Positions 14,816 to 52,442 of a stretch of DNA of 64,000 bases are shown here, piece by piece. The DNA is from Clytia hemisphaerica. Its lineage: Eukaryota > Cnidaria > Hydrozoa > Leptothecata > Clytiidae. The position numbers were made by a program, and so were the translations under genes. The notes under the pieces were generated by a model, which ran no database searches, was not told the DNA's origin, and was given only the letters and a program-made list of their open reading frames with translations. Each line of letters begins with the position of its first letter. Positions within the stretch are counted from its first letter, which is position 1. The stretch covers positions 81,086 through 145,085 of the forward strand of contig CACVBU010000918.1 in NCBI GenBank assembly GCA_902728285.1, written 5' to 3'.

Positions 14816-15103
14816 GCTGGTTGTTAAAACAATTAGTACCAACGGATGAAAATCCCATAAGCCGTGATGTTAAAGATGTTGTCGCGATGAATTTGAATGT
14901 TGACTGGAAGAAATTTGCATACGGAATTATGTCAGATCAAGATATAGAAAGAATTGACCTTGACAATAGAACTGTATATGAGAAATGCTTTGAAATGTTG
15001 AACAAATGGACTGAATCGAACCCTTATGAAATAACAAATGCCATATTGAAACTGAAATTAAATGAAATGCAGAGAAGAGACATTCTAATGGACATTGCTG
15101 ACA
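14816..15103 (+). CDS. DD1 exon: single death domain
   Basis: The exon follows the acceptor tactgtttaaag and ends at a GTAAGT donor. It enters and leaves in phase 1 (2 + 95 codons + 1). It encodes a canonical death domain: VDWKKFAYGIMSDQDIERID (helices 1-3, with the conserved Trp), then YEKCFEMLNKW and ITNAILKLKL..MQRRDIL, matching the usual C..ML..W...(T)...L..AL..I.R.DI pattern. The domain fills nearly the whole exon. It joins in frame to the linker exon at 17470 and then to 19139, so the DD1 product would carry three death-fold domains. No start exon was identified, so the N-terminus is unknown. Death domains form adaptor-receptor or adaptor-kinase assemblies in innate immunity and apoptosis. 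The specific pathway here is unknown. Confidence 0.75.
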
Positions 15104-15116
15104 GTAAGTGATATTA

Positions 15117-15222
15117 TTGAGTTTTAAGCCCTGAAAGGGGCTAGAGATGAATATTCAACCTTTTTCAAGCATGAAAAAGTGAAAACCTTAAGATTTGCTC
15201 CGCATTTCGAAATTTTGTTTGA
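15117..15222. repeat. dispersed repeat, copy 1
   Basis: The segment containing ggggctagagatgaat and ccttaagatttg recurs in inverted orientation at about 25315-25412. Confidence 0.6.
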
Positions 15223-15326
15223 AAAACACACGGGTCACGTGTTTAGGATAGGAAATAAGTATCTTCATCTCCAGAACTTACATATCACAATTAATCTGCA
15301 ATGGGGAAAACTCTCTAAAAAGAGAG

Positions 15327-15616
15327 TACGCGTTTTTTTAAGAAACTAGTTTACCAAGCAGCCTCAACGTTTCTTAAGAAATCGGCCTTTTGAGCCTTAA
15401 AAATGTTTCTTACATGTTTCTAAACTTTTTTACATAATCAGCCTGTTTTTCATGCAAAGAAAAAAAAAACATTTGTTTTGATTGGAAGGTTCTTAAAAAC
15501 AACCGAATTAAGAAATGTTATTTTCTCATTCTCAGCCTCAGCATGTTTCTTATTTTTTAGGCATTCTGAGCCTCGTGTTTCTTAAAAGTGTGTTTCTTAA
15601 AAATAAAAAAACGTGT
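15327..15616. mobile_element. MITE with tacgcgtttttttaagaaac ends
   Basis: The left end tacgcgtttttttaagaaac pairs with the right end gtttcttaaaaataaaaaaa followed by cgtgta. The interior holds repeated gtttctta words. It lies in the DD1 intron. Confidence 0.65.
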
Positions 15617-17469
15617 AACGCCTCAATACCAACATCACATTTATTATTACCCACTCTTGTGTTTCGGTTCTACAATCAGTGACAAAATACTTGGCACAAA
15701 AGGGAAATTCACCGGGGTGTTTTGAAACCACAATCGATTTGTAAGTGCTCTAAAGTAGGTTCGAAGGGTAGAGTTTTAACTCTGAGTTTTAACGCTAGAC
15801 TTAAGGCTTAGGACCTTAGGATCTGAGGATCCAAAAGTTCAAAAATGGTCTAGTAGGGCTTGAAATATAGCCTAGAAACCAATAAATCCCTCCCAGATCG
15901 AAATAATCGACGAAATTAAGTTGAAGGCCTGAAATTGACATTCTCGCTCGAACTTCAATTTTCGAAAAATGGTAAATTAGCCAAAAGTGCCAATATATTA
16001 TGGCACTGATTGTAGCTCCTTCAGGGCTTTGAAAACACTATTTACTCTACTGTTTTATTTTGAATTTAAAGTCTGTGGATACTGTACACGTAAAAATGTA
16101 TACACCGTTGGAAAGATTTTTTTGGAGGCAAAGATTTTTGAGAAATTGAAAATTGGAGATGAAATAAATGAAGATAGACAGGTTCAGTCAGACTTAAGAA
16201 ATACAATATGGCTCCCAATATTTGACAATAAGGTTCTGCCCGTGAGGGAGTAGGAGTGACATTATTGCCAACCATTACAATCTGTCTAACATTGACTTGC
16301 ATTGACAGTTCAACAACACTGTAGTAACCATTTTCTCAAAGGACTATTTCCAAATTTTTCTTACAAATAGAACTATTGCTACACTCCTGATATTGGTATT
16401 TATAATCTGATGTATACAGGATACAGGATACAGGACAAAGATACAGGATGTATACGGGTTTGATCCGCGAGTACAATTTTGGACTAAATTAAATAACCTG
16501 GAAATTTCGAATTTAGCGCTATCGTCACTTACTAAGTTAGAAAACAAATTTCAAATAACATAATTCCATTCATTTGTTTATGAGAAAAGAAATTATAACA
16601 TGGCTATGACCCTTCCTTCCCTGTGCACAGGCTAAAATTGCTCCTTGATTTATATCTATATTTTAGTATCTTTTATTATCCATTGGAAACCACGATAGTC
16701 TAGTTTGCACAATAGACAACACAATAGACAGCTACAGATTTTTAGGCCTTACTCTTGAGTAGGAGTTTTACGCTCGAAACGAAGGAAGATATGACGTAGC
16801 CTAAGATTGTCATATTATGTATGCTTCTTAGAATTTAATAGAGGAATGTTTACATACCGTTGGTTAAAAAAATGTGATTATAATATTAGTTTTGTACTTG
16901 TGTTATGTCAATGTATAATAAGTTTGAACATGCATACACGGATGCTCTAACTATTTTGTCAACTTTTTTAATTACTCATGACATTCGGCTTTTTCTGAGA
17001 AATAGGAAAGTCAAAAATGAAATTCAATAATTCAAAGGAATCTATATGATGAAAAAAATGGTCGAAATACTTATCAATCATGGAATGTAGGCCTTTATGT
17101 AGTGTTGTCTATTCCTTCATATTTTTTTTAAAGACCAAGTATAAGTTGTGGTTTGTTGCTGTTTGTGTAAAGTAGTGCATTTTGTTGTTGTTTTGTTGTT
17201 GGTGTTTACTTAGGATTTTGGTTTAATTAATGTTGTTTTTCGAAGGGTGCTATATGAAAAAGAAAAGTTTTAGTTATAGAAAACTGTTAACTTCGTGGCT
17301 TCACTTTTTTTCTGGCCATACATAAGGTATCATTCAGTAGCAAAAACACCATCAAATAAGAAATATACAAACACAACACAATAAACATAGACGGCCTAAG
17401 ATCTTTTTATATCGTCCAATATATATAAGGTATCATTCCATACAGCACGCTTTTTTCTCACCATTTTAG
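15617..17469. other. DD1 intron, no exon seen
   Basis: AT-rich intronic sequence. A stretch near 16085-16165 (acaccgttggaaagat...) resembles sequence at 28225-28300 and 34455-34490 in the DD3 and DD4 introns, so an old dispersed or duplicated segment is present. A short atacagg array lies at 16419-16450. Confidence 0.4.
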
Positions 17470-17619
17470 AGGTTCCATCTTTTGGGAGAGTGAAATTTCC
17501 AGACGAGCCTACCAGAAGTTATGAGGAGCCGAGACAACCGCAACAACCACAACAACCGCAACAACCGCAGCAGCCAGCAAGGCAAGAGAACCTTTATGAG
17601 AGAGATGGAGGTAATAAAG
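17470..17619 (+). CDS. DD1 exon: Pro/Gln-rich linker
   Basis: The exon follows caccattttag and is bounded by a gtaaaa donor (alternative gtaata donor 9 bases earlier, same phase). It is phase 1 on both sides. It encodes about 49 residues including four PQQ/PQ repeats, ending ENLYERDGGNK. The unstructured linker lies between the single death domain (14816-15103) and the double-domain exon (19139-19773), and both joins are in frame. Confidence 0.65.
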
Positions 17620-17682
17620 GTAAAATATAATGTGATATGGAAAATTGCATGTTAATTGCAAATATTAATTACATATTCTTAA

Positions 17683-17895
17683 GGAGCGATAGCCAAGTGG
17701 TCAAAGGCGTCAGCGTTTCAAACTAGGGATTTGTGTTTTGTCGCCCCTTCCAATGTTCCGTTCAGCTCATAGATAGCCGAGCCGGCTAGCCGTGGCCCCG
17801 TGAAAACAATTGAATAACTTCTGAAAGTTATAGATTACTGGGCTATCCACGTTAAATATCGACTCTGTCTATCTATCTATGTCTCTATTTGTTTT
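17683..17895 (+). mobile_element. tRNA-derived SINE
   Basis: The head ggagcgatagccaagtggtc matches the 5' half of a tRNA-Ser/Leu-like sequence with an A-box (tagccaagtggtc). A degenerate B-box (ttccgttc) follows about 75 bases later. A non-tRNA body ends in tetranucleotide tcta repeats at about 17877-17890. A functional tRNA is ruled out by the long, unpaired second half. Confidence 0.6.
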
Positions 17896-17954
17896 ATATA
17901 ATGTTCTTTTCATATTTATTTATACTGTCGACCCCTCATTTAATGCAGATAATA

Positions 17955-18304
17955 CCCGGGGGGTACTAGGTTTGCGAGGTGACGGGTATGTCCGAGCCGA
18001 AAATCGAAAATCGACCCTTTGAGAGACAAAATTTTGGTGATTTTGGGACCCTTTGAGAGACTTTTTCCTAAATTTTGGTCCATTTTTTCAAATTTTGGTT
18101 TGATTTTCACCAAATTTTAGTCAAAATTCTTGGAAATCGTGACCCTTTGAGAGAGAAATTTTTGATTTTTGTGATTTTGGGACCCTTTCAGAGACTAACT
18201 TTTGAATTTGTACCCCTTTGAGAGACTTTTGAGGAATGAGAAAAGGTACCCTTATGGCTCACACATACCCGGCACCCATTTTGCCTAAGTACCCCCCCCC
18301 CCCG
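17955..18304. mobile_element. MITE with G-run termini and internal ACCCTTTGAGAGA repeats
   Basis: The left end cccggggggtactagg pairs with the right end cctaagtacccccccccccc. The similarity continues through gacgggtatgt / acatacccg. Four copies of ccctttgagagac-like words lie inside. Confidence 0.65.
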
Positions 18305-19138
18305 TGAGATAATGTTAGTTAGAGGTGTCTTAAAAGTTCAGGGGTAATTCTCAATCAATCTGTTCTATATCCGTTACTTTTTTCTTATTTAGTTATACAG
18401 TGACCCCCCTCCCCTCTCTGAGCAGACAATTTTGAAATTGACTAAAAAGTTCTGGAGTTATTCAATCCATGATCAATCATTTTTAGAAATATATCTCAAT
18501 CTAGTTTTTTGTCAACATTTTTGTCAACATGATCCAATTTCTTTGCAAATTGTTGCATTTGTTTTTCTACTCGATTCTTTCCAGTATTAAAGTGTCATGG
18601 GCAACCCTGGAAAAAAATATCAGGAGTTAAAATCAAAAAGATATGTTGTAAATTATCATCTATAAGTTTCCCAAAGTTGACGTTGTTAACTACAGTACAA
18701 ATACATTGCCTTTGAACCATTGCCTTTTAATTAATGAACCCATTTCAATGTTGATTATTGTAAATAAGTTGTCTAGCCTAATAGACTAATGAGTGGTTAA
18801 GCGATTATTAACATAAAAGAATTTAAATTCAATGCTTTTAGAAGTGTTTTAACATAATGATAAAGCTTACCGAAAAAAATTATCATGCGTCGATTTTAAA
18901 GTACTGTACTACGTTGCTTTTTGCTTTCAATTTTATGTATGTTGAAAAACTTGAAATTTAGGAACATAATGTTGAAAATAGGCAGTAGAGACTTTGTCAA
19001 ACATTTCAGCTGAAAGAATTGGAATGTTTGTTGTGGAAGGGGGTTGAAGTTTGAATGTATGAAATTTTAGTTTTCTAACTTTATAAAATGACTGTTCCAT
19101 AAACTACTGTGTTGTTTTCTTTGTTTCTTTTTCATAAG
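18305..19138. other. DD1 intron, no exon seen
   Basis: AT-rich intron ending at the acceptor tttctttttcataag before 19139. Confidence 0.5.
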
Positions 19139-19773
19139 AGTTTTACGTGACTGATCTGTCCTTAAGAGACACCGATGAACTGGCAACCAAGCTAGATGTC
19201 ACTTACGGTGCTGGTATATCAAACTGGAAGAATGTTGCTCACGAACTAATCGGCCGAGATTCAGAGCTATTTTATCAAATCAAAGACTTAGACCTGCATT
19301 ATTATGGAGGGGGAAATCCAGCATTGGAATTTTTTAAACAGTTAGCTATGAAAGAACCTGATGTCACTATCCGGCAATTCCAAAGTATTTGTAAAGAATT
19401 TCAGAGAATGGATATGTCGCTTTACATCGATCAAAAATTAAGTAATAATCTGGACGGGTTTGTACGAGATTTGCAGAGTCAGCACAAAGAACGACTAGCG
19501 AGTTACATGAATTTAAATATACCAGGTGTTTATGACTGGGAAATGTTTGCTGACGAATACGGTTTCAATAGACAACAAATTAATTTGATGCGAGCAGCTC
19601 TTAAAGAAGGTGGCAGTTTTAGTCCGACCAAAAAATTGGTTGAATTGTTACAACAATCAAGACCCTTGACAACTCTTGATGAAATCAAAAGAGCATGCGC
19701 TAAACTGGGTCGGAATGATGTCGTCCTTGTATTGAATAAAGCGATTGAGAAAAAGAAACAAAGGATGACGTAA
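19139..19773 (+). CDS. DD1 last exon: two tandem death-fold domains
   Basis: This phase-1 exon encodes 210 residues to a TAA. Domain A (about residues 5-95) has SNWKNVAHELIG at helices 1-2. A glycine patch YYGGGNPALEFF follows, then EPDVTIRQFQSICKEFQRMD, which is the T...F...C..F.R.D ending seen in all the cluster's A domains. Domain B (about 112-205) has YDWEMFADEYGFNRQQI, FSPTKKLVELL and TTLDEIKRACAKLGRNDVV, a near-textbook death domain with Trp, SPT-like turn and the R-N-D helix 6. A basic tail (KKKQRM) ends the protein. It is the most conserved member of the cluster. The double-death-domain architecture is seen directly. Binding partners are unknown, and assignment to a specific adaptor family such as MyD88 or IRAK is not possible from sequence reading. 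Confidence 0.78.
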
Positions 19774-20150
19774 TGTTTGTCCGATTTGCTTTAGTTAGAG
19801 GAGATTACTACGGGGTAGCGAGCACTCGCCAACGGAAAAGGATTATCTTCCCATAGGTAAGACACTTGAACCTCCACTGTTAGAGACCACCTTATCAACG
19901 GTTACCTTTAACTGCGAAGAGTTTCAAAGCGTGCTAACTGCAAATGAGTATGAATAATTTTGATTTTTCATTGTCAAACCATGCGATACTTAACATTAGA
20001 TTTTGACCATTATAAACTTCTATATCTTTTCTGTTACACATTTATGCACAATCAGCCTTTTGGTAACCTATCGTACATTAAAAGACTGTTGTACTGCAAG
20101 AAATTGCTTAAGTTTTGCTTAGGTTTTACTTTCGAAGAGGGCCATTTAAA

Positions 20151-20511
20151 GGCCTGTTTCCATCGATCGCGCGAGGGTGCACGCTAGGATAAAATTTCCT
20201 AAAATAGCCTATTGACGTCACGAATTAAATTTTCTTGTACACAAAAAGTGTACGCTCTTGTACGCTTTTGTGCTCTTTTCTACGCTGAAAATTTTCAACT
20301 TTTTTGAGCGTACAGGAGCGCACATCTCAATTGACAATTTTTTAACCAATCAAGAAAGCGAAAAACTGCTGAGTAAACAAAAAAATGTAAACATACAGAT
20401 TGTGTATGTTTTTTATGGAAATCAAACATTGATCGCGCGGAGTGTGCGGCCAAATCTATTTTAAGAATTTTGGCCTAGCGTGCACGCTCGCGCGATCGAT
20501 GGAAACAGGCC
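20151..20511. mobile_element. MITE (361 bp) with TTAAA target duplication
   Basis: The ends GGCCTGTTTCCATCGATCGC and the exact complement are flanked by TTAAA at 20146-20150 and 20512-20516. The arms share gtgcacgctagg. A second internal inverted repeat (tgtacgct / agcgtaca) suggests a compound structure. Confidence 0.85.
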
Positions 20512-20599
20512 TTAAAGCGTGTCCGGAAAAAAAAAGAGGAACAGATTTATGTATTATAAGTATTTATCTTTATATATAAAGTAAAATCTTTATGTAATA

Positions 20600-20745
20600 G
20601 TTATCGGACAGTTGCGAGTACAATATGAGAAATATTTTACGAGTTCCCAGATTTTCCGTACAATATTTTCCGAGCCTTTAGGCGAGGAAAATATACGGAA
20701 AATCCGGAACGAATAAAATATTTCTCATATTGTACGAGCGTCAAT
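20600..20745. mobile_element. hairpin MITE (GTTATCGGACAGTTGC family), copy 1
   Basis: It begins gttatcggacagttgcgagt and folds back on itself (ccgtacaatattttcc / aaaatatacgg). A full-length copy flanked by TA lies at 32617-32770. The right end here is truncated. Confidence 0.7.
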
Positions 20746-20754
20746 TTATATTTA

Positions 20755-20965
20755 ATTTAATATTTAAAGGTTTTGTTTTTAAATAAGAGTTGTTTACTCA
20801 TCAAGCTTTTTCACATTGGATTGACAGGGATGTGGAGCAAGATTGGTCAGAAAAAGGAAAAGAAACTGCTTATACCAGCATAATATAACAATAGGCAGAC
20901 ACTTTCCTGATATGAAATATGTTTCTGATATGAAACGGGAACATTTATGTAAAAATAAAACCTTT
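20755..20965. repeat. dispersed repeat, copy A
   Basis: The segment with aaaggttttgtttttaaata and gatgtggagcaagattg recurs at 31480-31720 (inverted) and 54538-54665 (truncated), giving three copies in the window. Confidence 0.65.
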
Positions 20966-22084
20966 AATCAAATATCTACTGATTGAACGAAACAAAATTT
21001 CATTTTATTATGATAAATTCAAACTCCAATGATTTTGATAATTGTTTTTTTATTTTGTTCCACATTTTTCCGGACACAACTCATAGAAAAACATCAAAAA
21101 GCTTACATTCTTTTTATAAGCATTTCACTTATATGCATCGCACTTTTGTGTATATCTAGGCTCAGAAATTCAAGCTTATGTGAAGCATTTACCCGAGCCT
21201 AAATTTTTCGATTTTGGCTATTTTTTGCTGGAATTTTACGGATTTTTTCGAATTTTCCTAAGATTTTGCTTAATATTTAAACATCCTTCTAGTATTTTTT
21301 AGCCTTGTCCGGTTCTCGATCTAATGTATGCTTTAAAAGCTTTTTTAATTATATCGCATCTTCTTAATATTTTTGTTCCGTATAATTGTAAGCAATTATA
21401 AAGAAAAAAGTGTAAAATTTGAAAAAAGGGTTAATAATAAAAGTGGGGAAGGATTGTTTTTGTTTTCAGTTTCAAATTTGGTAAACGTTTCTAAAAAGTA
21501 CGTGAGCAAAAATTGTTTATTTCCTTTCAGCCAATGACCATCCGAAAAATTACCCCTGCTATGCAGGGCTTTGTAAAAAGAGAAGAAATAGGAAATTAAT
21601 GCTCATTAAGATCTTAAGATCTTCTCTTCCAGTTAGTTCGCTGAGTAGTTATTTGCTACACCATAACTAAGATCTTGGTATGACTGGGTTTTGGTTCAAA
21701 AAAATTCATCCACATTACTAACAAAATAACAATGTTTTTTGAAATCTACAGCTTCATGTTGAATTTAACTTTTCTTAATTTTTCAGCCAAGAGGTTGTTG
21801 ATGCTTTTCTATCTTAAAGGGGACATTTATCTTTTGTATTTTGAACACAAGATAACTTTGTCATCCCTGTCTAATTACTCTATTTATTTCTATCATTTTA
21901 GGTCATACTAAGAAAAATAAAAATATTAAAAAAATTGAAAAATATATAAATAATGTGCATTGAACAAACAATTGGATTGTCTTGACTGGATTAATAAAAA
22001 AAAAACAACCCTGATATGGTTTTGATTTTTTGGCGCCAATGGGTTGTTGTCGATTTTTCAGGTAATATTACAGTCAATCTTCAC
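20966..22084. other. no firm gene; one possible DD2 exon
   Basis: After the acceptor tttcctttcag, a 42-base phase-1 to phase-1 exon (21531-21572; NDHPKNYPCYAGL then a gtaaaa donor) would fit the cluster's exon style. Its downstream partner (23920) needs a different phase, so the link is not supported. The rest is AT-rich. Confidence 0.2.
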
Positions 22085-22087
22085 ATT

Positions 22088-22262
22088 TGCACTTTTTTTT
22101 ATAAGAACATAGAACAAATTTGAGACCTCAGATGTTCTTAACTCTTTTAGTTTGAAGCCTCGAAATGTTCTTAAAATGTTCTTACTTTTACAGTTTTGTG
22201 AGCACTTTTGTCCCTTTTCCTAAGAAATTGGTTCAGCAAAGCCTTGAAATATTCTTAACTTG
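22088..22262. mobile_element. AAGAAC-type MITE, truncated copy
   Basis: It starts ctttttttataagaacatag and contains the family's repeated ttcttaa words. Its right end is replaced by the next repeat. Other copies lie at 12.9, 54.9, 57.9, 62.5 and 63.1 kb. Confidence 0.6.
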
Positions 22263-23260
22263 TTGGACCTACCTCCGGGTGCCCCGGTGGAGGTCCTATG
22301 AATTAACCTCTGTCTGTTCGTCCGTCCGTCCGTCCGTTCGTCTGTTACCAGCTTTTCTCGAGATTGGCTCATTAGTTTTTTCTGATTTTTTGCACAAAGA
22401 TGCAAAATGGCAATGGCCAAAATGTGACGGAGCCCGATTTTCGAAAAAAAATCATTTCCGGCCTAAAATGCCGGAAATATGCCGGAAAAACCGGCCTTTT
22501 GGCATTTTTTCAAGATTTCATCATTAGTTTTTTCTGATTTTGTGCACAAAGATGTGTATTAGCATTGCCCAAAACTTGGCCGAGTCCGATTTTTGAGAAA
22601 AAATCTTTTCCGGTCGAAAATACCGGAAATATGCCGGAAATCGCCGTTTTTGCAGATTTTCATCGGACTTTTTCCTTATATTTCGTTGTTTTTTCACACA
22701 AAAACATTATTAATAGCAATGTCCACGATCAAGCATGATTCAATTGTCAATAAAACTGATTTTTGAAGCCGGAACTTTCTAAAGATCGCCGGAACAGCCG
22801 ATTTTCGCCGGAAAAACAGTATTTCTTGAATTTCTTGAGCTGTACTTTATATTTTTTCATGAAATTTTGCACACTGATGCAAAATGTCAATACCTAAATT
22901 GTGACGAAGCCCGATTTTCGAAAAAAAATCATTTCCGGCCGAAAATGCCGAAAATATGCCGGAAAAACTGTTTTTTTGGCATTTTCTCGAGATTTTATCA
23001 TTAGTTTTTTCTGATTTTTTGCTCAAAGATGCGTATTAATTATGTCCAAAACATGGCCGTGTCCGATTTTTGAGAAAAAAAATTTTCCGGCGGAAAATGC
23101 CTGAAATATGCCGGAAATCGCCGTTTTTCTAGATTTTCATTGGACTTTTTCCTTCTAATTGGTTGTTTTTTCATTCAAAAACATTATTGATAACAATGCT
23201 CACCATCAAGCATGATTCAATTGTCAATAAAACTGAATTTTGCGACCAGAACTTTCTATT
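22263..23260. repeat. CCGGAAA-rich direct duplication, period about 476 bp
   Basis: The block starting ttttttgcacaaagatgc (about 22388) recurs about 476 bp later as gaaattttgcacactgatgc (about 22861). Each unit carries cccgattttcgaaaaaaaat, several gccggaaatatgcc words and the tail aagcatgattcaattgtcaa. It is preceded by a tccg microsatellite (22316-22334). A short related copy lies at 40708-40790. No coding frame was found. Confidence 0.7.
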
Positions 23261-23711
23261 TAGTTTTTCCCTACAACCCTTCCCTCTCCCCCTACCATCA
23301 ATCAATGATGAATTTCTTGCGTTATGCATTTTCGCTAAACGCCATTTTTTTTTGACTGATATTTTTTCATTTTTCTCCTTGCATTACTATCTAACTTACT
23401 TTCATCATCAGGTAGGTCCATTCAGCATCTAGCTTGTTCTTAATATTTTGGCCATCGAAACCCTATATTCTTATATATTTTGTTTTTGTTCATGTATTCA
23501 ACTGTTTGCCTAGTGTTCTAGTTTTTTTTGGGGTCAAAAAAGAATCTTTGTGAATAAAAGTCATTATTTATAAGCACACAATTATTAGTACATTGTATAA
23601 GCACACAATTACTAATATTTTGAGAATTTGTCTGAAATTGCTTCATGAACTTTGATCATGCCAATTTATATCCATGCAGGGGGTTGGACGAACATTTTAC
23701 CCTCAAAAACG

Positions 23712-23877
23712 TGTACTGTAGTGTCTCCATAACTCGAACACGTACGGGGAGTGCAGATTTGGTCGAGTTATAGAGTAAGGTTTATAAGGTATTGTTAACT
23801 GAAAGGACCATAAAACTTTTTCGAGTTAAGATGACATTCGAGTTGTAGAGGTTCGAGTTAAAGAGATTCTGCTGTAT
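23712..23877. mobile_element. MITE with CTCGAAC inverted ends
   Basis: The left end tactgtagtgtctccataac pairs with the right end near 23852-23877 (gttcgagttaaagagattct). Related degraded copies lie at 25028-25142, 31432-31500 and 37082-37248. The TA-flanked ends suggest a Tc1/mariner or pogo origin. Confidence 0.6.
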
Positions 23878-23919
23878 TATCACAACACCTTAATCTCTTT
23901 TTTTCTCATTATCTTGTAG

Positions 23920-25008: not shown

Positions 25009-25027
25009 AACGCGGACTGCCAATCAC

Positions 25028-26212: not shown

Positions 26213-26234
26213 GTAAGTATCCAAGTATCTATAG

Positions 26235-28691: not shown

Positions 28692-28739
28692 TTGACTGGA
28701 TTGTGCTTTCCATATTAAAGGAAGCGTGTCTTGTTTTCA

Positions 28740-42171: not shown

Positions 42172-45100
42172 ATGTCAGTGCAGTTTCAGTTTGCAATTTG
42201 TACCTGCTACTTTTGCTTTATAGGTGAGAGTCTCTGATCCCTACGTTACAGTATTTTATTGTCTTTTTTTTGTTATATATAGACAGCAGCAAGTGTAATT
42301 ACTGGTACTCCTACCTCACTTGCTAGTTGTCTAAAAAAGATAGCATAAGCTTGTTTGTGTTATATATCAAACAAGTAGCTACACACCAGAGGGTTGCATG
42401 CGAGCTCCTTGCACCCTCTTGCTTAACCTACTTAACCTGCTTAACCTACTTAACCTACTTAACCTACAGAACTTAATCAACCTATCCAACCAATCTAACC
42501 GATATAACCAATCTTGCGTATCACACTTAATATCTACTGAACGTAGACTACGTCGTAGTCATTTGATTGTACACGAGACTGAATTATTTTCCCAGAGAAT
42601 GTCAAGCATGCCAAATTATCAAATTTCAAAAGCCATTTTGGGTTCGTTTAATCAAGCAAATGAAGAGCTGTTCGGCCTAACTGCAGGAACTCAGTGTAGC
42701 GTCAATTGCCTCTATGCGATATTCTGGTCAAATTTTCGACGTGTTTCTATTTGGAAAACCACTGACTTAGACAATATCCTGATTGAGGGAGATAAGTTAT
42801 ACAAACAGCTTGGTGTAAACTGCTATCTATCTGTTGATGAGATGCCACGCTTTATTGAAACAAATGGTTTTATAACTAATATCAATTTTCTGAATTTTAC
42901 AAATGGTAATGCTACTTTAGTCGATGACGACCTGATTCTACAAACTCCTCTGAGTGAATCCACAAATCAAGAAAGTTTTGATGCCTTAATGATTATCAAC
43001 AATTTCACGATAGCAATTATGAAACGTCCTCAAGGTTATTATTTATTTGATTCGCATAGTCGAAACGAGCTTGGACTTTGTGATCCTAATGGAAAATCTT
43101 GTCTGCTGAAATTTGACCACATTTTTGACTTCGAAAAATATGTCCAATATTTTTACTTACAAAAAATGAATAAAGAAACTGCTAATTTTGAGATTCAATT
43201 TATTCAGATATATGATCTAAACATAGAGCTTATAAGCATACTCCGAAAGAATTTCTCTGCATTTTCACGTAATGTTTCCAAAAAGCGAAAAAATGGTTCC
43301 AATGATGGAAATAATATTGCAAAGCGTCAAAAAACACGTCAAGAAATAAATAAAACATATCATGATAAGAATAAAGACACACAACTGAAAAACATGAAAG
43401 TATATCACAATGACAACAAAGAAACAATACTCAAAAACAAGAAAGTCTATTATTCTCGAAACCAAGAAAGAATAGCTAAAAAAAGGAAAGCTTGTCCCAA
43501 AAAGGAAACAGGTGTTTCAAAGTTTTTAAAGCTTATACATGAAGGTCCGTTTTACAAATGTGTTTGTTGTCACAGATGTCTCTACAAGCAAACTGTCATC
43601 AAATATTCACCTGACAAGTATAACATGCCAGAAGTAGAATATCTCTCTGAAATAATTTCATTTGATGGGCAATTGTATATTTGCAAAACATGCCACAATA
43701 AACTTAAAAAAGACAATTTACCATGTCAATCTGTGAAAAACAAACTCACTTTAGATGAACTACCAGCTGAATTTAGTTCTCTTCGCAGGCTAGAAAAAAT
43801 TTTGATTTCTCGCAGGATTTTATTTAAGAAAATTGCAATAATGCCTAAAGGTCAATTTCCCAAATTGAAGGGTTCAATTTGTAATGTACCAATCGATGTT
43901 GAAAATATTGCTAATGTTTTACCTCGAAAAACTAGTGACAATGGTTTACTTATAGTTAAACTTAAAAGGAAATTAGAATACAAAGGACATGTTGTTTTTG
44001 AACCCATTAGACCTGATTTCATACAACGCATTTTAAGTTATTTGAAAGAAAATAATCCCCTTTATCGAGACATAGCAATTGATGTTACTAATATTTCTAA
44101 TGATGAGACCATGACACAAAACGCGTCAGAGATAAATGCTGAAAATAATGAAGAAGAAGCTCTTTCACACCATGAGGTTAGTGATGAACTTCAGACAGAA
44201 GATTCCCATTCAGACGATCTTGAAACCACAGCCAACCCACTTGATGCTCATCGTTCAAGTGCAAACGAAACAACCTTAATGTCTCACACTCCCACAGATG
44301 TAGAAGTTGACAATGAAATTCTAACCTTAGCACCTGGTCAAGGTGAAACACCTATTTCAATCCTACGTGATGAAAACTGTGAATTGCTTGCGCATCCTTA
44401 CTTATTTCCTAAAGGTAGATTTGGCTACAAAACCGAACGCGATGTTAAGCTAAGTCCATCTAAATATTTTAACCAGCGCCTTTTGAATGAAAAGCAAAGC
44501 TTTGCCTCAGATGCAGACTATATATTTTATGCTTGCTCTGTTCTGCAGCAACTCTCTTTAACAAATCAAATAAATATTGCTATGAAAAAAGTAGCTGGCT
44601 CTAATTTAAGTGCTGGTATGCTCAGTCAGAATTTCAAAGAAACAGTTAAACAATTCATTGCAAATGACAAGGCTTTTGCCTTTATGAGTACTGTCAAAGG
44701 GTCTCCCTCGTATTGGAAAAAATTTCAACAAGAAGTCTTGGCAATGGTGAAACAACTAGGTCCACCAACTTTCTTTTTCACTTTGAGTTGTGCTGATCTT
44801 AGGTGGAATGAATTGATCTCAATAATCTACAAAATGAAAGGTCAAAATGTAACTGATGAATTCATTGATAATCTTTCTTATCATGAGAGGTGTGATTTAC
44901 TAAATAGTAATCCTGTACTTGTAGCGAGACATTTTCAATATAGAGTTGAGGTATTTTTTAAAACAATTGTTTTGGATGGCCCGCTCGGTAAAACAACTTA
45001 TTATGCTATCCGTGTTGAATTTCAAGTTCGTGGTAGCCCCCACATTCACTCATTTCTTTGGATTTTAAATGCACCAATATTAACCGCAGCAACTAAGATT

Positions 45101-48100
45101 GAATACACAGAATTCATTGATAGAATAATTAAAGTTAGCTTGCCATCACAAGATGAAGATCCAGATTTATTTCACCTTGTGAAAACTTACCAATTGCATC
45201 GCCATTCAAAAACTTGTCGGAAATATAAGAATACTCCTTGTAGATTTTATTTTGGTAAATTTTTTTCTGGGAAAACAATTGTTTCCGAACCTTTGCCTCA
45301 AGAACTTCCACGCGAGCAAAAAGAAACCATACTTGCATTACGAAAAGAAGTTTTGACTAAAGTTAGGAATTACATTAACGACAACCTTAATCCAAGCAAA
45401 AGGAACTTTTTTGATCCAGATGCAGAAAATTATAATCCAGTTCCAACCATAGATGGAGTACTTGCTGAATTAGATATTCCAAAAAATGATTATGAATATG
45501 CTCTTTCTGTATCTGAAGACGAAGATTTCCATATATATTTAAAACGTGACACAAATGCATGCTTTGTGAACAATTATTTCACTGAAGGTCTCAAAGCCTG
45601 GCAGGGTAACTTGGATATTCAGCCAGTTTTTAATTATTATAAGGCTGCAACTTACATGTGTGCATATCTTTCTAAAACTGAGGATGAAGTGTCTCATGCT
45701 ATGACCCAAGCTGTCCAAGATGCCTTTGAAAACGGTGGCGATAAGTATCAGCAAATGAAATCTGTTGCACACGCATATGTTTCAAAGCGTGAAGTATCCG
45801 TGCAAGAAGCTGTGTATCTCACTATGCCAGAATTGTGGCTTCGAAAGCTTTACCCAGGTGTAACCTTTGCAAATACAAATGTACCAGAGAAAAGATTTAG
45901 AATGTGTCTTAGTGAGGATGAAATCAGTCAGTTGCCTGAAGACAGCACTTCAATTTTCAAAAAGAATATGCTTGATAGATATTGTGATAGGCCAAAGGAT
46001 AGAAGCGGGGCTTATAAATCTGTCGTTGAAATGTGTTATGCAGAATTCTTAAGGTTTTACACTGTTGTCTATGAGGAATGCAATGAAAATGATTGTCAAC
46101 CTAATCAGCTTGAAGATGATTTAATAGAAACAAATCATCCATCAAATAATTATCCAAAGATTGTTAAACTAAAAACATTGAAAGGTAAACTTAAATGTCG
46201 CAAAGTCCCACTAGTTCTTCGTCTTTATGAACCTAATCCAAACAAACATCCAGAAGATTATGCACACCATCTGTTAATGTTGTATTTGCCATTCCATGAC
46301 GAAAATGAATTACTGTCAGAGGTAGAAAAGACCTACACTGCCAAGTTACACGAGCCAGGTGTTATTGAAATGATTGACAGGAACAGAGCTTTGATCCAAC
46401 CATATGCAGGTTTAGTAGATGATGCATTAGAACGATACAGAACGGACTTGATACTCAACATGAATGATTTTGAACAACAAGAAAATGATGAAATAAATGA
46501 AGAACTTCAAAATAGAAATCCAAACAATGAGGATGAGTCAGATAATGAAAATAACAATGAAGCCCCAAATCTCAGGGCAGCAATTCCAATGGAATCAATT
46601 TTGCTTCCAGATAATGATATAAATACACGTATTAGGTCTTTAAATCATCAACAGAGAGAAATCTTTGATGTTATTCATAAATGGGGAAGAGATTTTATAA
46701 AGAACCTTTGTTCAAAAGTACCTAGAAATATTGAACCATTTTATATTTTCTTAACTGGTGGCGGAGGTGTAGGAAAAAGCCACTTGCTTACAACTATATA
46801 TCATTCTTTGTCAAAACTTTTAATGTACAGAGGAGGAGAACCTACCAAAGAAAGAATCCTAGTGCTTGCTCCGACTGGTGTAGCAGCTATAAATGTGAAT
46901 GGAACTACCATACATTCAGGTTTAATCATTCCTACAACAGAGTTTTATTCATTGAATGCTTCATCAAAACAAAACTTACAACAAAAACTTGCTTGCATTG
47001 AAATAGTAATGATTGATGAAATTTCCATGGTTTCGAATAATCTGTTTAGAAAAATTGATAAAAGATTGCGCCAGATATTTAATGTTGAGAAGCCATTTGC
47101 TGGGAAATCTGTTTTAGTATGTGGAGATTTATATCAACTACCACCTGTTTTTAAAGGTCCCATTTTCAAAGGTCCCATTGTCAAAAAAGATCCCATTGAT
47201 GGTAAAAATAACCATGTAAAACCAAATTGCTCTTTGATGGATGAAATAAATGGATTTGAACTGTGGCGAAGTTTCCAATTAGCCGAATTAACCCAAGTTA
47301 TGCGTCAAAGGAATGACATAGAATTTGTTGATCTTTTGAATCAAGTTCGACTAGGTGATCTAGATGAGGAAAAAGAAGCACTTTTAAAGTCAAGATTTAT
47401 TTCTAAAGACAGTCCAGATTACCCAGCAGACATCACTCACATTTTTGCAGAAAATAAACCAGTGGATTCTTATAATTTGCAAAAATTGAATGAGCTATCG
47501 ACTGAGAGCCAAATGATTACTGCACAAGATGAGATTCCAAAACATTTGACAACCAAAGATATGAAGTTTATTGAAAATGCTCAAGCAAGAGAAACAGGTG
47601 GTCTAGCTCGTGTACTTGAGTTGAAAGTTGGTGCTCGTATTTTGATTTCCAAAAATATTGACATTACAGACAGGCTTGTTAATGGCCAAGTAGGAAAAGT
47701 TATGGGTTTTAAATTTAATTCCAATAATAAAATTTCAGGTATTTATGTTAAACTTGATGATATTACAGCTGGTAAAAAAGCATCTAATTTAGATAATATA
47801 TGTAGAGAAAACAATTGGACTTTAATTGAAAGAGCAGAATGTACATTTAATACAAGAAAGCAAAAGAAAAAAGGAAATAAAGAAAAACCTTTAAATGTTC
47901 GAAGAACTCAATTTCCTCTAGTTTTGTCTTATGCCTGTACAAGTCACAAAGTCCAAGGGTTAACACTACAGTCTGCAGTTGTCAGTTTTGAATTATTTGC
48001 ACAAAAAATCTTCAACGAAGGTCAAATGTATGTAAATTTATCTAGAGTGACTGACATAAATGGATTATTCTTGGTTGGTGAATACAATAAAAAAGCTATC

Positions 48101-48832
48101 CGTGCTAACAAGGAAGCAGGTATTGAGTATGAACGGTTACGTAAAGCTAATCCTTTACCAAAAGTTGAAGAATTTTCACCTACTTCCATTTCTGAAGAGC
48201 AGTTGTATATATCACTTTTAAATGTCCGATCTCTGAAGAAACATGCAGTTGATATAATTCATACAGAAACTCTTATGAGTAGTGACTTATTATGTTTTAC
48301 TGAAACCCAAATTTCACCTTCAAGTGAAACGAATGATATCGATGAAACACTACAAGCTTTCAAAATTGAATACAATAATAATTCTATCAACCGGTTTCAA
48401 AACACTGCATATTGTTCAAATTCTTCAATTCAGATTCTAGAATGCCTCAAAGCAGCTGGTTACACATGTGTAAAGTTTGTTAAAGAATCATTTAGTAACA
48501 AACCCATTACACTTTTACTTTTGTACAAACCACCTGATTATTCAAAATATACTTTTTTTGAAGAACTGCGAGAACTTTTATATGATGGAATAGACATTAT
48601 CTTGGGAGATTTCAATATTGATGCTTTGGATCCTACAATGGTAGATCTTGCTAATGTACTCTCCGCATACACATTGATAGTAAATGAACCAACTCATCTG
48701 GCAGGTGGCCTTCTTGATCATGTGTATTTGAAAAAAACTTTCATAGATCAGAAAGAAGTAGAATGCTTTGTTAAGAATATTTATTTTTCAGACCACGATG
48801 GAGTTTGTTTTTCACTATTGAACAAATCTTGA
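42172..48832 (+). mobile_element. Helentron (Helitron-like rolling-circle transposon), apparently intact coding region
   Basis: The element lies in the DD5 intron, immediately right of the DNA transposon at 41560-42161. Its exact borders were not determined. Palindromic sequence precedes the frame (agcaagtg...cacttgct near 42285-42335 and gagggttgca...tgcaccctc near 42389-42419). A gaggggaggggtgggggag / gcctccccccctgggtagg complementary pair follows it at 48905-49090, and could be the 3' subterminal hairpin. Helentrons move by rolling-circle replication using the encoded Rep-helicase. Confidence 0.75.
42599..48832 (+). CDS. Helentron Rep-helicase with N-terminal cysteine protease and C-terminal endonuclease
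   Basis: The frame has no stop for 2,144 codons from 42398. The likely start is the ATG at 42599 (MSSMPNYQ), because the upstream part is a leucine run made by a 9-bp ttaacctac repeat. Domains (numbered from 42599): residues about 25-200, papain-like protease with GTQCSVN (Cys) and LFDSHSR (Asp-His), resembling OTU/C76 deubiquitinases; about 230-295, basic repeats; about 300-500, Cys-rich region resembling Helitron DUF6570; about 700-1060, Helitron-like Rep with the HUH motif GSPHIHSFLW (about 815) and a YYKAATYMCAYL tyrosine motif; about 1350-1860, PIF1/RecD helicase with GGGGVGKS (about 1387), VMIDEISMV, GDLYQLPPV, TQVMRQR and SHKVQGLT; about 1870-2077, EEP/APE-type endonuclease with LLNVRSL, FTETQ, ILGDFNIDA (about 2002) and SDHDGVCF. 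This domain order is typical of Helentrons. Confidence 0.92.
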   Translation: MSSMPNYQISKAILGSFNQANEELFGLTAGTQCSVNCLYAIFWSNFRRVSIWKTTDLDNILIEGDKLYKQLGVNCYLSVDEMPRFIETNGFITNINFLNFTNGNATLVDDDLILQTPLSESTNQESFDALMIINNFTIAIMKRPQGYYLFDSHSRNELGLCDPNGKSCLLKFDHIFDFEKYVQYFYLQKMNKETANFEIQFIQIYDLNIELISILRKNFSAFSRNVSKKRKNGSNDGNNIAKRQKTRQEINKTYHDKNKDTQLKNMKVYHNDNKETILKNKKVYYSRNQERIAKKRKACPKKETGVSKFLKLIHEGPFYKCVCCHRCLYKQTVIKYSPDKYNMPEVEYLSEIISFDGQLYICKTCHNKLKKDNLPCQSVKNKLTLDELPAEFSSLRRLEKILISRRILFKKIAIMPKGQFPKLKGSICNVPIDVENIANVLPRKTSDNGLLIVKLKRKLEYKGHVVFEPIRPDFIQRILSYLKENNPLYRDIAIDVTNISNDETMTQNASEINAENNEEEALSHHEVSDELQTEDSHSDDLETTANPLDAHRSSANETTLMSHTPTDVEVDNEILTLAPGQGETPISILRDENCELLAHPYLFPKGRFGYKTERDVKLSPSKYFNQRLLNEKQSFASDADYIFYACSVLQQLSLTNQINIAMKKVAGSNLSAGMLSQNFKETVKQFIANDKAFAFMSTVKGSPSYWKKFQQEVLAMVKQLGPPTFFFTLSCADLRWNELISIIYKMKGQNVTDEFIDNLSYHERCDLLNSNPVLVARHFQYRVEVFFKTIVLDGPLGKTTYYAIRVEFQVRGSPHIHSFLWILNAPILTAATKIEYTEFIDRIIKVSLPSQDEDPDLFHLVKTYQLHRHSKTCRKYKNTPCRFYFGKFFSGKTIVSEPLPQELPREQKETILALRKEVLTKVRNYINDNLNPSKRNFFDPDAENYNPVPTIDGVLAELDIPKNDYEYALSVSEDEDFHIYLKRDTNACFVNNYFTEGLKAWQGNLDIQPVFNYYKAATYMCAYLSKTEDEVSHAMTQAVQDAFENGGDKYQQMKSVAHAYVSKREVSVQEAVYLTMPELWLRKLYPGVTFANTNVPEKRFRMCLSEDEISQLPEDSTSIFKKNMLDRYCDRPKDRSGAYKSVVEMCYAEFLRFYTVVYEECNENDCQPNQLEDDLIETNHPSNNYPKIVKLKTLKGKLKCRKVPLVLRLYEPNPNKHPEDYAHHLLMLYLPFHDENELLSEVEKTYTAKLHEPGVIEMIDRNRALIQPYAGLVDDALERYRTDLILNMNDFEQQENDEINEELQNRNPNNEDESDNENNNEAPNLRAAIPMESILLPDNDINTRIRSLNHQQREIFDVIHKWGRDFIKNLCSKVPRNIEPFYIFLTGGGGVGKSHLLTTIYHSLSKLLMYRGGEPTKERILVLAPTGVAAINVNGTTIHSGLIIPTTEFYSLNASSKQNLQQKLACIEIVMIDEISMVSNNLFRKIDKRLRQIFNVEKPFAGKSVLVCGDLYQLPPVFKGPIFKGPIVKKDPIDGKNNHVKPNCSLMDEINGFELWRSFQLAELTQVMRQRNDIEFVDLLNQVRLGDLDEEKEALLKSRFISKDSPDYPADITHIFAENKPVDSYNLQKLNELSTESQMITAQDEIPKHLTTKDMKFIENAQARETGGLARVLELKVGARILISKNIDITDRLVNGQVGKVMGFKFNSNNKISGIYVKLDDITAGKKASNLDNICRENNWTLIERAECTFNTRKQKKKGNKEKPLNVRRTQFPLVLSYACTSHKVQGLTLQSAVVSFELFAQKIFNEGQMYVNLSRVTDINGLFLVGEYNKKAIRANKEAGIEYERLRKANPLPKVEEFSPTSISEEQLYISLLNVRSLKKHAVDIIHTETLMSSDLLCFTETQISPSSETNDIDETLQAFKIEYNNNSINRFQNTAYCSNSSIQILECLKAAGYTCVKFVKESFSNKPITLLLLYKPPDYSKYTFFEELRELLYDGIDIILGDFNIDALDPTMVDLANVLSAYTLIVNEPTHLAGGLLDHVYLKKTFIDQKEVECFVKNIYFSDHDGVCFSLLNKS

Positions 48833-51232
48833 ATTATTGATAAATTCATTATTACTTTTTGTCAGCTTACTTAGTCTACTTAGCCTGCTTTGCATAATCA
48901 GTTTGAGAGAGGGGAGGGGTGGGGGAGTGCATTCAAGGTAAATAACCTAGGTTTCATTTGAAAAAATTTAGTCTTCTTGGATTTAAAGAAATTTCTGAAA
49001 GATTCCATTGTGATGTAAGAATTTTAGAGTCAACCTTTGGTGTAAACAAACAGTAATTTTTATTTTGAGTGCCTCCCCCCCTGGGTAGGAAAGGGGGTAT
49101 CCGTTTGATTGCATTGCCTTTGTTATATTGTTTAGTTAGGGTAATACAAGAATTTGAAATTATGAAAATCACAAATAATTTCTCTTTGGTAAATCATTCA
49201 ATAATTTTGTAATTTTATGCCAAAAACTGTTTTGATGTATAAAACACTCTTAGGTTAGGAATTAATGATACCTTTGCTCTTTAGATTTAAAATAATTATT
49301 GTCGCTATCAGGTATTTCTATGGCAATATTCATTTCTCTGCGATCTCTGAAGATTAAAATTTACAATTTTTACCTATTAGTATACTTTTCATAACTTTTT
49401 TTATGTATTTGTACATTTTTTGTAAATAAATTTCAACTACATATTTGTAAAAACTTGAATTAGTACAAAAATTTTAAATTTATAATTACACAATTTTGTA
49501 ATATAGTTAAGCATTTTTTAATTTATTGAAACAATTGTTTTTAGTTTTCAAAGGGAATTTCAGAATTTTTAGGAAATTTTTAATTTATTCATTTATCTCA
49601 TTTCAAAGTTCACTGTTTATAAAACAAATTCATTAAAATTTAATTCTAGAAACAAATTTAAATAAGGACAATACTAATGAAAATATGAATGAAAATAATA
49701 TTGGATACTATTGGACTAAAATAATATGTAGATGTTAACTGCCAATGGAAGTGTACGAAATTTTGTTAATGTGGTAATCAGAAATGTTGATAATCAATGC
49801 ATTATGTCGTGTTGTGGTTGAATTCTTTGTTCGTAATCTTGGGTGACATTATATACTATACCATAATCGATAGCCTACAAAAACATCAAATTGTCCATTT
49901 CATGATTTGTATATCAAACAATTCACACAAGGAACATGGAAAGGAGCAAGGTGAGATATCTTTTAAAATATTAATTTATTTCAAGTCAAATTTTAATTTC
50001 TTTAAAATCAGCGCAACTCCATTCTTTATCAGGTTAATTTTGGCCCTCCCCATTCCAATTTTAAGAGTTATAGAGATCCGCCTAACATCGCTTCATGAAA
50101 GACCTTCTGAATGACTCTGTTTTGATTGCTAAACTTATTTTTTTAAACCAGGAGATTGATCGTACAGAAAAGTATCAAACACACCAACACCAAGACGATC
50201 TTCTACTTTGATGCTCTAAATTTACAAAAATCAGGTAAAATCTTTTTTAATATGTATCAATCAACTAAGTTCAGGGTATCCGAAACAAAAAGAGACAGAA
50301 GATCAAAACCTATCATTAAAGTAGATTTATTTTGTGCACTTTGTTTTATTGCTGCTTGATATATACAAGAAAGTGGATTTTTTCATGTCTTTATGCTGTC
50401 CAATTGATCTAGATTTAAGAATTTTATTTATAAACTCACACATTCTGAACAATATTTTGTTTCTCCTTTTGTTGCTAGATTTTGAACAAGAAGTCCAAAT
50501 TCATTTCATCTTTGGCTACTTACAACATCATTGTGTCAGTCAAAATATCGAAGCGCTCTTTATTCGTTAATCGTATAGCAATAAAGCGCATTCATAGATG
50601 GACATTTCTTGTGGTGAAGATTGAATATGGTTTTTTAAGATTTCAGTCAACGCATTTTGGTGATTCAAAAAACGCTCGTAACCTTGCTCTTTATGTTTTA
50701 AAAGTTGCTCAAATGGCATCACACAAATATTTTGGTTTTCAAAATTATTCCTCGTTGTCGTTGCTTTTTTACTTGGTGAAAGTCTATTATCAAATCAATT
50801 TAAAAAATTATTTTGGCCATTTAATATGCATCAACCTGGTTGGATTGCTGGTTAAAATTGTTGTGTTGCCTGTTGTTCGTCCTTGCAAATAATCGTGTTC
50901 TCGAAAAATATTGTCATTTTGATGGAAGAAATTATAAAGACATACTATTGATTCACTTGCATATGAATAAAAAGACAGTATTATTTAATGAAACTTAATT
51001 GATATTCGAGTTGTATAATAATTATTCTCTTTTACTCCATTTTATCCTTTGGTATGATATCTTTTTATTCTTAAGAAAAATTTATGAAATTGACAAAAAT
51101 TATTACTTCCGATTTCGTCAGTTTTCTCATAATAAGTCTTCTCAGCTTTTAGCCTTCTCAGCTCTTTAATATTTAAGGGCGACCTTCCAGCGCAGCTGGT
51201 TTATTCGATTTCAATCCTGTCTCAGTTTCATA
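48833..51232. other. rest of the DD5 intron, unassigned frames
   Basis: AT-rich. An acceptor at 49649 (taattctag) opens an Asn-rich frame (TNLNKDNTNENMNENN), but its donor would create a stop codon on joining to 51829. A gtgaga donor at 49951 and a 136-codon frame at 50482-50892 (SKRSLFVNRIAIKRIHRW...) look locally coding but could not be tied to a gene. Confidence 0.3.
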
Positions 51233-51765
51233 GGACGTCCTTAAGTTATCTCTTCGGACCTTTATTCGTCCAAAATGAACCATGTTCCCATTTGATCTTC
51301 CCAGTCTAAAGAATAAGCTGTTTCACTTCAAATTTATATCCCCCCTAAAGTTATCCCTTCGGATTTTTTCTTCGTCCAAATGAACCATGTTCCATTTGAT
51401 CTTCCCAGTCTAAAGAAAAGATGTTTACTTCAAATTTATATCCCCCTAAAGTTATCCCTTCGGATCTTTCTTCGTCCAAAATGAACCATGTTCCCATTTG
51501 ATCTTCCCAGTCTAAAGAATAAGCTGTTTCACTTCAAATTTATATCCCCCCTAAAGTTATCCCTTCGGACCTTTCTTCGTCCAAAATGAACCATGTTCCC
51601 ATTTGATCTTCCCAGTCTAAAGAATAAGCTGTTTCACTTCAAATTTATATCCCCCCTAAAGTTATCCCTTCGGATCTTTCTTCGTCCAAAATGAACCATG
51701 TTCCCATTTGATCTTCCCAGTCTAAAGAATAAGCTGTTTTATACTTCAAATTTGTATCCCCCCCC
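51233..51765. repeat. 105-bp minisatellite, five copies
   Basis: Units containing gttatcccttcgga (51350, 51451, 51556, 51661; first unit near 51243) repeat with periods 107, 101, 105 and 105. Each also carries aaatgaaccatgttcccatt and cccagtctaaag. The array ends about 65 bases before the DD5 last-exon acceptor. Confidence 0.9.
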
Positions 51766-51828
51766 CAAATCAACGAAAAATATAGTATCGTGACATTAAG
51801 GTCTTTTACACCGTATTCCTTATTTCAG

Positions 51829-52442
51829 AACCTATTACATTGCGAAGTCTAAAAAAGAAACAATTAGATCGAATCTGTCATGAGCTTGACGGTTGTACAA
51901 CTGGAAACGTACCACGCTGGCAAATCCTGGTTGAAGAGGAATACAAAGGGCAGGAAAATATTCCAAAACGCAAGAGAATCGTTGGTGATTTGGAGCAATG
52001 CTCTTTAGGTGGTGGGAATCCGGGGCGTTCATTTCTTGAAAAACTCGAGACCAACAAACCTGATTTAACTTGTAAAGACTTCCGAAAAGTCGCTGTTTCA
52101 TTAGAACGAGGCGATATAAACAAGGCTCATTATTTACAGCACAATGGTAAATTAAGTGATTTGGAATTTGACGATATATTAGCTTTGAGTGTGCTTTTGA
52201 ATAACAAAAACGCATCAAACTGGGAGTATTTTGCTGAAGAATATGAATTTACAAGCCCTAGTATTGAGCAAATTCGAAACAGTAAGGCTGAAGATGGAAC
52301 TAAAAGTGCTGGTTTAAAACTTTTAAAAGATACATTTGGTGATATGAGTACAACTCGTTTTAAAGAACTCTGTAAAAGCAAAGATCTTAATTTTATTGCG
52401 AAGACCGTTACAGAAATTGAAAATGAAAGTCGAAAGGAATAG
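51829..52442 (+). CDS. DD5 last exon: two tandem death-fold domains
   Basis: This phase-1 exon, after the acceptor ccttatttcag, encodes 203 residues to a TAG. Domain A (about 5-100) shows LDRICHELDG, VPRWQILVEEEYK, LGGGNPGRSFLEKLETNKP and DLTCKDFRKVAVSLERGDI. Domain B (about 112-195) shows SNWEYFAEEYEFTSPSIEQI, SAGLKLLKDTF and STTRFKELCKSKDLNFI, where the usual R-N-D of helix 6 is replaced by L-N-F. It resembles DD2 most. It completes the DD5 product with exons at 39648, 40170 and 40888. Confidence 0.75.

Follow-up and report, generated by a model that had tools for sequence, protein, structure and literature searches.

Do the five long last exons lying between positions 14816 and 52442 of the analyzed Clytia hemisphaerica DNA represent a tandem family of genes with two death domains each, and what kind of protein would such genes encode? 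The window, i.e. the whole stretch of 64,000 nucleotides that was analyzed (assembly GCA_902728285.1, contig CACVBU010000918.1, positions 81,086–145,085 of the forward strand), has a low GC content (31–36% per 4 kb) and contains split genes together with transposons. An initial annotation, made from the sequence alone, had proposed such a family; its last exons are here termed DD1–DD5, and their two domains A and B. Death domains (DDs) are docking modules used by animal cells for assembling immune and cell-death signaling complexes. The analysis described below suggests that the window contains at least five paralogous genes, which probably encode small soluble scaffold adaptors composed of a variable tail followed by the A and B death domains.

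Five paralogous last exons with two homologous domains

All five last exons were located on the + strand, where the initial annotation had placed them: DD1 (19139–19773), DD2 (24350–25008), DD3 (30324–30988), DD4 (37653–38269) and DD5 (51829–52442; all identified from stop-to-stop open reading frames, ORFs). They probably form part of an array of five or more paralogous genes in head-to-tail arrangement. Each exon constitutes one open frame of 203–220 amino acids (aa), which starts after an AG acceptor in phase 1, with two bases preceding the first complete codon, and ends at an in-frame stop codon, both of these previously claimed features being present in 5/5 cases. Frames of this length exceed chance expectation: in 100 simulated 64-kb windows (first-order Markov model preserving the nearest-neighbour composition) the longest ORF had 197 aa, none attaining 200 aa.

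BLASTP comparison of the exons, with E-values that apply to a six-sequence database only, revealed matches for nine of the ten exon pairs (E ≤8e-6 in one or both directions). The DD3/DD4 match (1.7e-41, 41% identity) was followed by DD1/DD5 (3e-14), DD1/DD4 (4e-13), DD1/DD2 and DD2/DD5 (1e-12 each), and then by the four remaining matching pairs (8e-9 to 3e-8, except for DD2/DD3 with 8e-6). No match was obtained for DD2/DD4 (best E 0.70). The identity between DD3 and DD4 (41–44%) compared with that in the other nine pairs (19–26%) bears out the earlier remark that sequence similarity between the members is otherwise low.

Profiles built separately for domain A and domain B each recovered all five exons, with no further significant ORF in the window. 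When aligned with each other, the two profiles matched over 92 columns (hhalign probability 97.6%, E 4.7e-12); on this evidence the domains A and B are homologous. In a tree of all ten domains, the A and B halves were separated with 73% ultrafast bootstrap support, which is consistent with an ancestral A–B pair. DD3 and DD4 paired in both the A and B halves (87 and 97), and the other nodes were weak (41–59).

A sixth family member was also looked for within the window. The same profiles, built from DD1–DD5 themselves, were run against 1,545 six-frame ORFs (at least 25 aa) and recovered DD1–DD5 only, the next E-value being 0.16.

Death-domain identity of domains A and B

The whole exons were scanned with the Pfam Death profile (PF00531), for which the curated cut-off is 22.6 bits. 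Two exons scored above this value: DD2 (32.7 bits, 8.5e-8), where the match falls on domain B, and DD3 (23.5 bits, 6e-5), where it falls on domain A. DD1 was 0.1 bit short of the cut-off (22.5 bits, 1.2e-4), DD4 remained under it (17.7 bits, E 0.0039), and no match was obtained for the whole exon DD5. At E ≤0.0039, the Death domain was recognized in four of the five last exons and also in E0, an additional exon of gene 1 described below. DD1, DD4 and DD5 are placed in the family by their paralogy and not by a Pfam score of their own. When the B domains were scanned in isolation, Death was listed for four of them (2.9e-6, 3.6e-4, 0.048 and 0.083; one above the cut-off) and was not listed for DD3B. 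The hand-built spliced models gave Death matches for gene 1 (7.7e-13, with two stretches), gene 2 (1.8e-7, 31.6 bits) and gene 3 (1.4e-4, 22.4 bits, i.e. slightly below the cut-off).

Comparison with the Protein Data Bank (PDB) revealed that the best match of the B profile is the death domain of MyD88 (2.5e-4), followed by the death domains of ankyrin-3 (0.026) and RIPK1 (0.06); the MyD88 death domain was also matched by a profile of all ten domains (E 8.7e-4). Judged by these similarities, domain B is a death domain, closest to that of MyD88 among solved structures. The death-fold case for domain A follows from its homology to B, the match of DD3A and the predicted helices.

Two of the modules, DD1 and DD5, were modeled with AlphaFold from a five-row alignment. 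Six plus six helices were predicted in both DD1 (predicted local distance difference test, pLDDT, 82.7; predicted template modeling score, pTM, 0.53) and DD5 (pLDDT 85.6, pTM 0.56), which, together with the homology of A and B, supports the proposal of a tandem family of two-death-fold modules. The glycine patch (GGG or KGG) ascribed to domain A was confirmed: on the alignment, Gly-Gly is read in 5/5 domains (KGGP in DD2, GGG in the other four). GGG of the DD1 model starts at residue 56, between helices 3 (residues 42–53) and 4 (60–71), in a loop that may belong to or adjoin the type-III interface of death-fold assemblies. Only part of the domain A ending described earlier (T...F...C..R.D) was retained on inspection; R.D is present in 5/5 domains, but the full T/F/C set occurs only in DD1 and DD4, with T and C in DD3, T and F in DD5 and none of the three in DD2. 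The net charges of A/B in DD1–DD5 are −5/+5, +6/−1, 0/−3, +4/−6 and +4/−5, respectively; they are of opposite sign in 4/5 modules, an outcome often expected by chance and thus a lead only.

In a Foldseek search of the PDB, the ranking for DD1 was headed by caspase-8/cFLIP tandem-DED chains (top E 0.2; 18 death-fold chains among the best 50 of 115 matches) and that for DD5 by FADD (E 1.3; death-fold chains in 12/38 rows, a count that leaves out two ASC-PYD entries of fusion-like length). The DD1 ranking bears on the best functional rival of the scaffold reading, namely that the proteins are decoys or brakes, whose tandem death domains would cap or poison death-domain assemblies without passing the signal. 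The tandem-DED protein cFLIP can act in this way on caspase-8, and two death folds with no effector domain found by Pfam speak for such a function. However, with E 0.2 at best, the structural ranking is not significant, and the sequence does not tell an inhibitor from an adaptor. We regard the decoy function as possible but doubtful.

Several results weigh against the interpretation of the array products as paired-death-domain adaptors. Among the isolated A domains, Pfam Death was found in only one of five (DD3A, 0.024, below the cut-off); this, set against four of five for B, agrees with the earlier statement that B is nearer to textbook death domains, and in 0/5 exons were both halves recognized by Pfam. 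For genes 4 and 5, scanning of the spliced models with Pfam yielded no match to Death at E 0.1. The death-fold assignment was borne out by the B profile with its MyD88 match, but not by the A profile, which matched no death domain in the PDB, nor by Foldseek, which returned nothing at E 0.001 or better for the DD1 and DD5 models. The A–B fold itself is a prediction from the five-row alignment, with a pTM of only 0.53–0.56, and residues 52–57 of the Gly loop in DD1 have a pLDDT below 50. The first exons of the gene models are weakly defined because suitable ATG exons are frequent (about 1.4–2.1 per kb per phase), that of gene 5 alone being a sole candidate. Finally, the label “adaptor” is deduced from domain content.

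Gene models, age of the exons and a copied 5′ block

Candidate first exons and linker exons, all on the + strand, were assigned to each of the last exons. The most complex domain content is predicted for gene 1. Its candidate first exon (14318–14324; MS, phase-1 donor) was read by hand with low confidence, being one of five comparable candidates in the region 12600–14816. It is followed by exon E0 (14816–15103, phase 1-1), which encodes a single death domain (Pfam Death 31.7 bits, E 1.7e-7, for a stretch extended one codon beyond the donor; 2.1e-7, also above the cut-off, as a plain ORF). The closest solved structure to E0 is the TNFR1 death domain (E 0.0077). E0 was not recovered by the A and B search profiles (best E 5.9), and hhalign (probability 0.6 and 7.4%) gave no measurable closeness to either. 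It is assigned to gene 1 because of its phase and position and, given correct splicing, gene 1 probably carries a third death domain. A Pro/Gln-rich linker exon (17470–17619, phase 1-1), proposed from its splice signals and open frame, precedes the DD1 exon, which is itself supported by its ORF, Pfam, BLASTP and AlphaFold.

The candidate first exon of gene 2 (22039–22061; MGCCRFF, phase-2 donor) was likewise read by hand with low confidence; its donor is outside the strict set of splice signals, which offers four other candidates. The hand-built model continues with a linker exon (23920–24056, phase 2-1) encoding an Arg tract and then a Ser/Glu-rich segment. The MGCCRFF start followed by the Arg tract (22039–24056) resembles a lipid-anchored N-terminus, although the first exon is a guess. 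The MGCC start is, in our opinion, reminiscent of dual acylation; the N-myristoylation pattern, as we understand it, is not matched, residue 6 being Phe.

Genes 3 and 4 have similar sets of candidate exons. In gene 3, the candidate first exon MSSKQ (26197–26212; low confidence, one of seven comparable candidates) is followed by a Thr-rich linker exon (27107–27169), a micro-exon GVGQILST (27387–27413) and a linker exon SEKEESSQENAKNSK (28021–28068). In gene 4, the candidate first exon MSQIKSLK (32374–32398; low confidence, one of three comparable candidates) is followed by a Thr-rich linker exon (33517–33591), homologous to that of gene 3, a micro-exon GVGRILST (33801–33827) and a linker exon EKEESSQENAKTSKG (34233–34280). 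All six linkers are of phase 1-1, and all are in the strict list except for the two Thr-rich exons. Gene 4 may contain four additional linker exons of the same phase (34997–35062, 36041–36070, 36629–36679 and 36964–37056), the first three in the strict list and the fourth outside it.

For gene 5, the candidate first exon MATIKEKPTK (39648–39677, phase 0) is the only one of its phase in the region 38270–40170. A linker exon of phase 0-1 (40170–40206, hand-built model) and a Pro/Gln-rich linker exon of phase 1-1 (40888–41073, outside the strict list) precede a putative long intron. Within this intron lies an uninterrupted Helitron-type ORF of 2,162 codons (42344–48832, +), with Pfam matches to Helitron_like_N (5.5e-34), PIF1 (2e-30) and DUF6570 (2.2e-19) and a weak C-terminal endonuclease match (0.037). 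A 105-bp unit present in five tandem copies (51239–51763) ends approx. 65 bp 5′ of the DD5 exon. By eye, a possible 5′ exon pair of a further gene was noted at 54134–54820 (+; near 54134 and 54779); no last exon for it was found up to position 64000, and such an exon would be situated outside the window.

The phases of these exons raise the question of whether the array might be one locus, in which five mutually exclusive alternative last exons are combined with 5′ exons that are either shared or neighbouring, as in protocadherin genes. Since 5/5 last exons accept phase 1 and 13/15 internal exons are of phase 1-1, most of them are joinable; this argument is partly circular, as the internal exons, which are short and of low complexity, were picked by eye to fit. 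The first AATAAA occurs 0.9–1.7 kb 3′ of each last-exon stop. However, every last exon is preceded, at a short distance, by its own set of plausible 5′ exons, and the presence of the same copied linker exons in both gene 3 and gene 4 argues for separate units. The single-locus explanation is unlikely. Strict phase 1-1 internal exon candidates show no more than a mild excess on the + strand: 35 (+) vs 17 (−) raw rows, the former including repeated acceptors and last-exon pieces; 21 vs 12 when each is counted once outside the last exons and the Helitron ORF; and 17 vs 11 within 14316–51829.

The exons might also be the C-terminal ends of larger, Apaf-1/NLR-like receptors with a double death domain tail, since such tails have been described for Apaf-1 homologues (PMC2246300). 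Whole-frame scans of the + strand (12601–22202, 22201–42002 and 48801–58702) detected no other Pfam domain above the cut-off; they are insensitive, having found Death in E0/DD1 and DD2 and missed DD3, DD4 and DD5. Among 32 other + strand ORFs of at least 68 aa in the region 12600–51829 (a set that leaves out the transposon and the last exons), only E0 scored above the Pfam cut-off; exons shorter than 68 aa were not scanned singly. In neither set was an NB-ARC, TIR, WD40, kinase, caspase or receptor domain detected, which makes large receptors very unlikely. The same 32/32 ORFs agree with the earlier description of the family as adaptor-like, no enzyme, receptor or NTPase domain being found nearby by Pfam. 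An Rfam scan gave nothing at the gathering score.

The age of the exons was estimated from DD3 and DD4, which share 43.5% identity over 200 aligned codons. Their identity at codon positions 1, 2 and 3 is 0.625, 0.66 and 0.37, respectively; synonymous sites differ at 78% and non-synonymous sites at 37% (dN 0.5, dS saturated), and 17/21 comparable four-fold sites differ. Because synonymous sites are saturated and replacements limited, DD3 and DD4 are, by codon comparison, old duplicates under purifying selection. The initial annotation had called the family rapidly diverging; this description is contradicted by the saturated synonymous sites, the 37% non-synonymous difference and the conserved codon positions 1–2. 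Rapid divergence through positive selection was considered and ruled out by the synonymous saturation. The same data bear on the idea that the exons are non-functional relics of an old family. The array does contain transposons, one of them the Helitron-type ORF in a putative intron, but 5/5 frames have remained intact over 203–220 aa despite synonymous saturation, with codon positions 1–2 conserved, and a relic origin is hardly credible.

A different history is indicated for the 5′ parts of genes 3 and 4. A block of 1.1–1.3 kb (26985–28264 vs 33392–34499, +), comprising the three linker exons plus introns, is common to both genes, with BLASTN identities (gaps counted) of 80.8% over 715 and 80.5% over 329 columns. 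Of the ungapped columns, 758/878 are identical in introns (86.3%) and 111/135 in exons (82.2%); the linker exons are thus not more conserved than the introns, and their gap lengths of 12 and 3 keep the frame. The block is much younger than the death-domain exons and, therefore, one event cannot account for both. As judged from these identities, one of the two genes acquired this block from the other, by copying or conversion, well after their death-domain exons had diverged. An imperfect palindrome at 27659–27891, perhaps a small transposon, is found in the gene 3 copy of the block and is absent from the gene 4 copy.

Alternative splicing and copying could be combined in one locus, where any tail would be joined to any double-death exon and neighbours would also exchange tails by DNA copying. 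Such joining would be possible because the last exons accept phase 1 and nearly all linkers are of phase 1-1, and the copying of tails was seen between genes 3 and 4. If this improbable arrangement were true, the animal would combine different input tails with docking modules that are old and stable.

Proposed role, known relatives and neighbouring elements

For the separate paralogous genes favoured here, the most likely role of the products is that of scaffold adaptors of the Myddosome/FADD type; we infer that they would bind partners, assemble and possibly act in immunity or cell death. Each product would be a small soluble cytosolic protein, in which domains A and B, in this order, follow a short N-terminal tail of variable, low-complexity sequence. 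The MyD88-like domain B may bind to the death domain of a receptor or adaptor acting upstream, and domain A, with its Gly-Gly loop, may elongate or nucleate a second helix of death domains that recruits kinases or caspases; the proteins would in this way bridge two death-domain assemblies. Paralogues with differing tails and surfaces could provide several input-output pairings, and gene 1, with three death domains, might form a three-way bridge. Death-fold adaptors set receptor-effector pairing in innate immunity and cell death. Old constrained docking modules with 5′ tails copied from a neighbour would offer a possible route to rewire pathways with the docking surfaces untouched, and the A–B modules are a defined set for testing the partner choice of two linked death domains.

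The initial annotation had found no obvious match to a named family. Membership in the MyD88, FADD, tandem-DED and Apaf-1 families fails on a tested feature in each case, but the statement has to be qualified, as proteins with two death domains have already been published. MyD88, whose death domain was the best match of both the B and the ten-domain profiles, consists of a death domain plus TIR; in the array, no TIR was found by the Pfam scans, there are two death domains and not one, and the similarity is weak. The caspase-8/cFLIP tandem DED and FADD (DED-DD) share with the array two death folds in tandem, and occupy the weak top Foldseek ranks. Caspase-8/cFLIP combine the tandem DED with a caspase-like domain, whereas here Pfam calls Death and no DED or caspase was found. 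No DED was listed for the ten isolated domains at E up to 10 (HMMER filters discard most weak matches), a result that differs from the FADD layout.

Another two-death-domain protein is DD2 of the sponge Geodia cydonium, a potential pro-apoptotic protein (PMC9798719; PMC5793068). Like the array proteins (where the pair follows from the A–B homology, with B recognized in 4/5), it has two death domains per protein, but its published description points to a similarity with FADDs and the Fas ligand, whereas domain B is nearest to MyD88, and a tandem array is not mentioned in that description. Some Apaf-1 homologues, among the sets expanded in sea urchin, amphioxus and Nematostella, are described as having C-terminal “double death domain repeats” (PMC2246300). 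According to this description they share with the array two consecutive C-terminal death domains; they differ in their NB-ARC/repeat sensor, which was not found here by the Pfam scans, although small exons could escape these. Lineage-specific expansions of Death-like/TRADD-N proteins, including Amphimedon units with 1–3 Death-like domains, are described in sessile marine invertebrates (PMC8195603), and death-fold proteins are, by that account, expanded in both cases. No TRADD-N was reported by the Pfam scans here, the Pfam coverage of the TRADD-N families of that paper not having been checked. No relative was confirmed for DD4 in viral contigs or for DD1 in prokaryote genomes, and no description of the array or of the Gly-patch domain was found in the literature searched, most subscription journals being outside its scope. 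The domain type and paired layout have precedents, and the family is a notable but not an unprecedented one; of more interest in the array are the 5′ block copied between genes 3 and 4 and the gene that may encode three death domains.

Several other elements were noted in the window. At its 5′ end (1–720, +), a retroelement integrase-like fragment was recognized by eye, with no Pfam match above the cut-off in the single frame scanned (12–722). An ORF at 11757–12593 (+), with an ATG placed by eye at approx. 11793, contains a thioredoxin domain (6.6e-12), and its sequence is, in our view, reminiscent of TMX2. A 632-codon ORF at 59775–61673 (−) contains a reverse transcriptase domain (RVT_1, 2e-30). 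In addition, a dispersed repeat family rich in AAGAACAT was identified by eye, in both orientations, at 12.9, 22.1, 54.9, 57.9, 62.5 and 63.2 kb.

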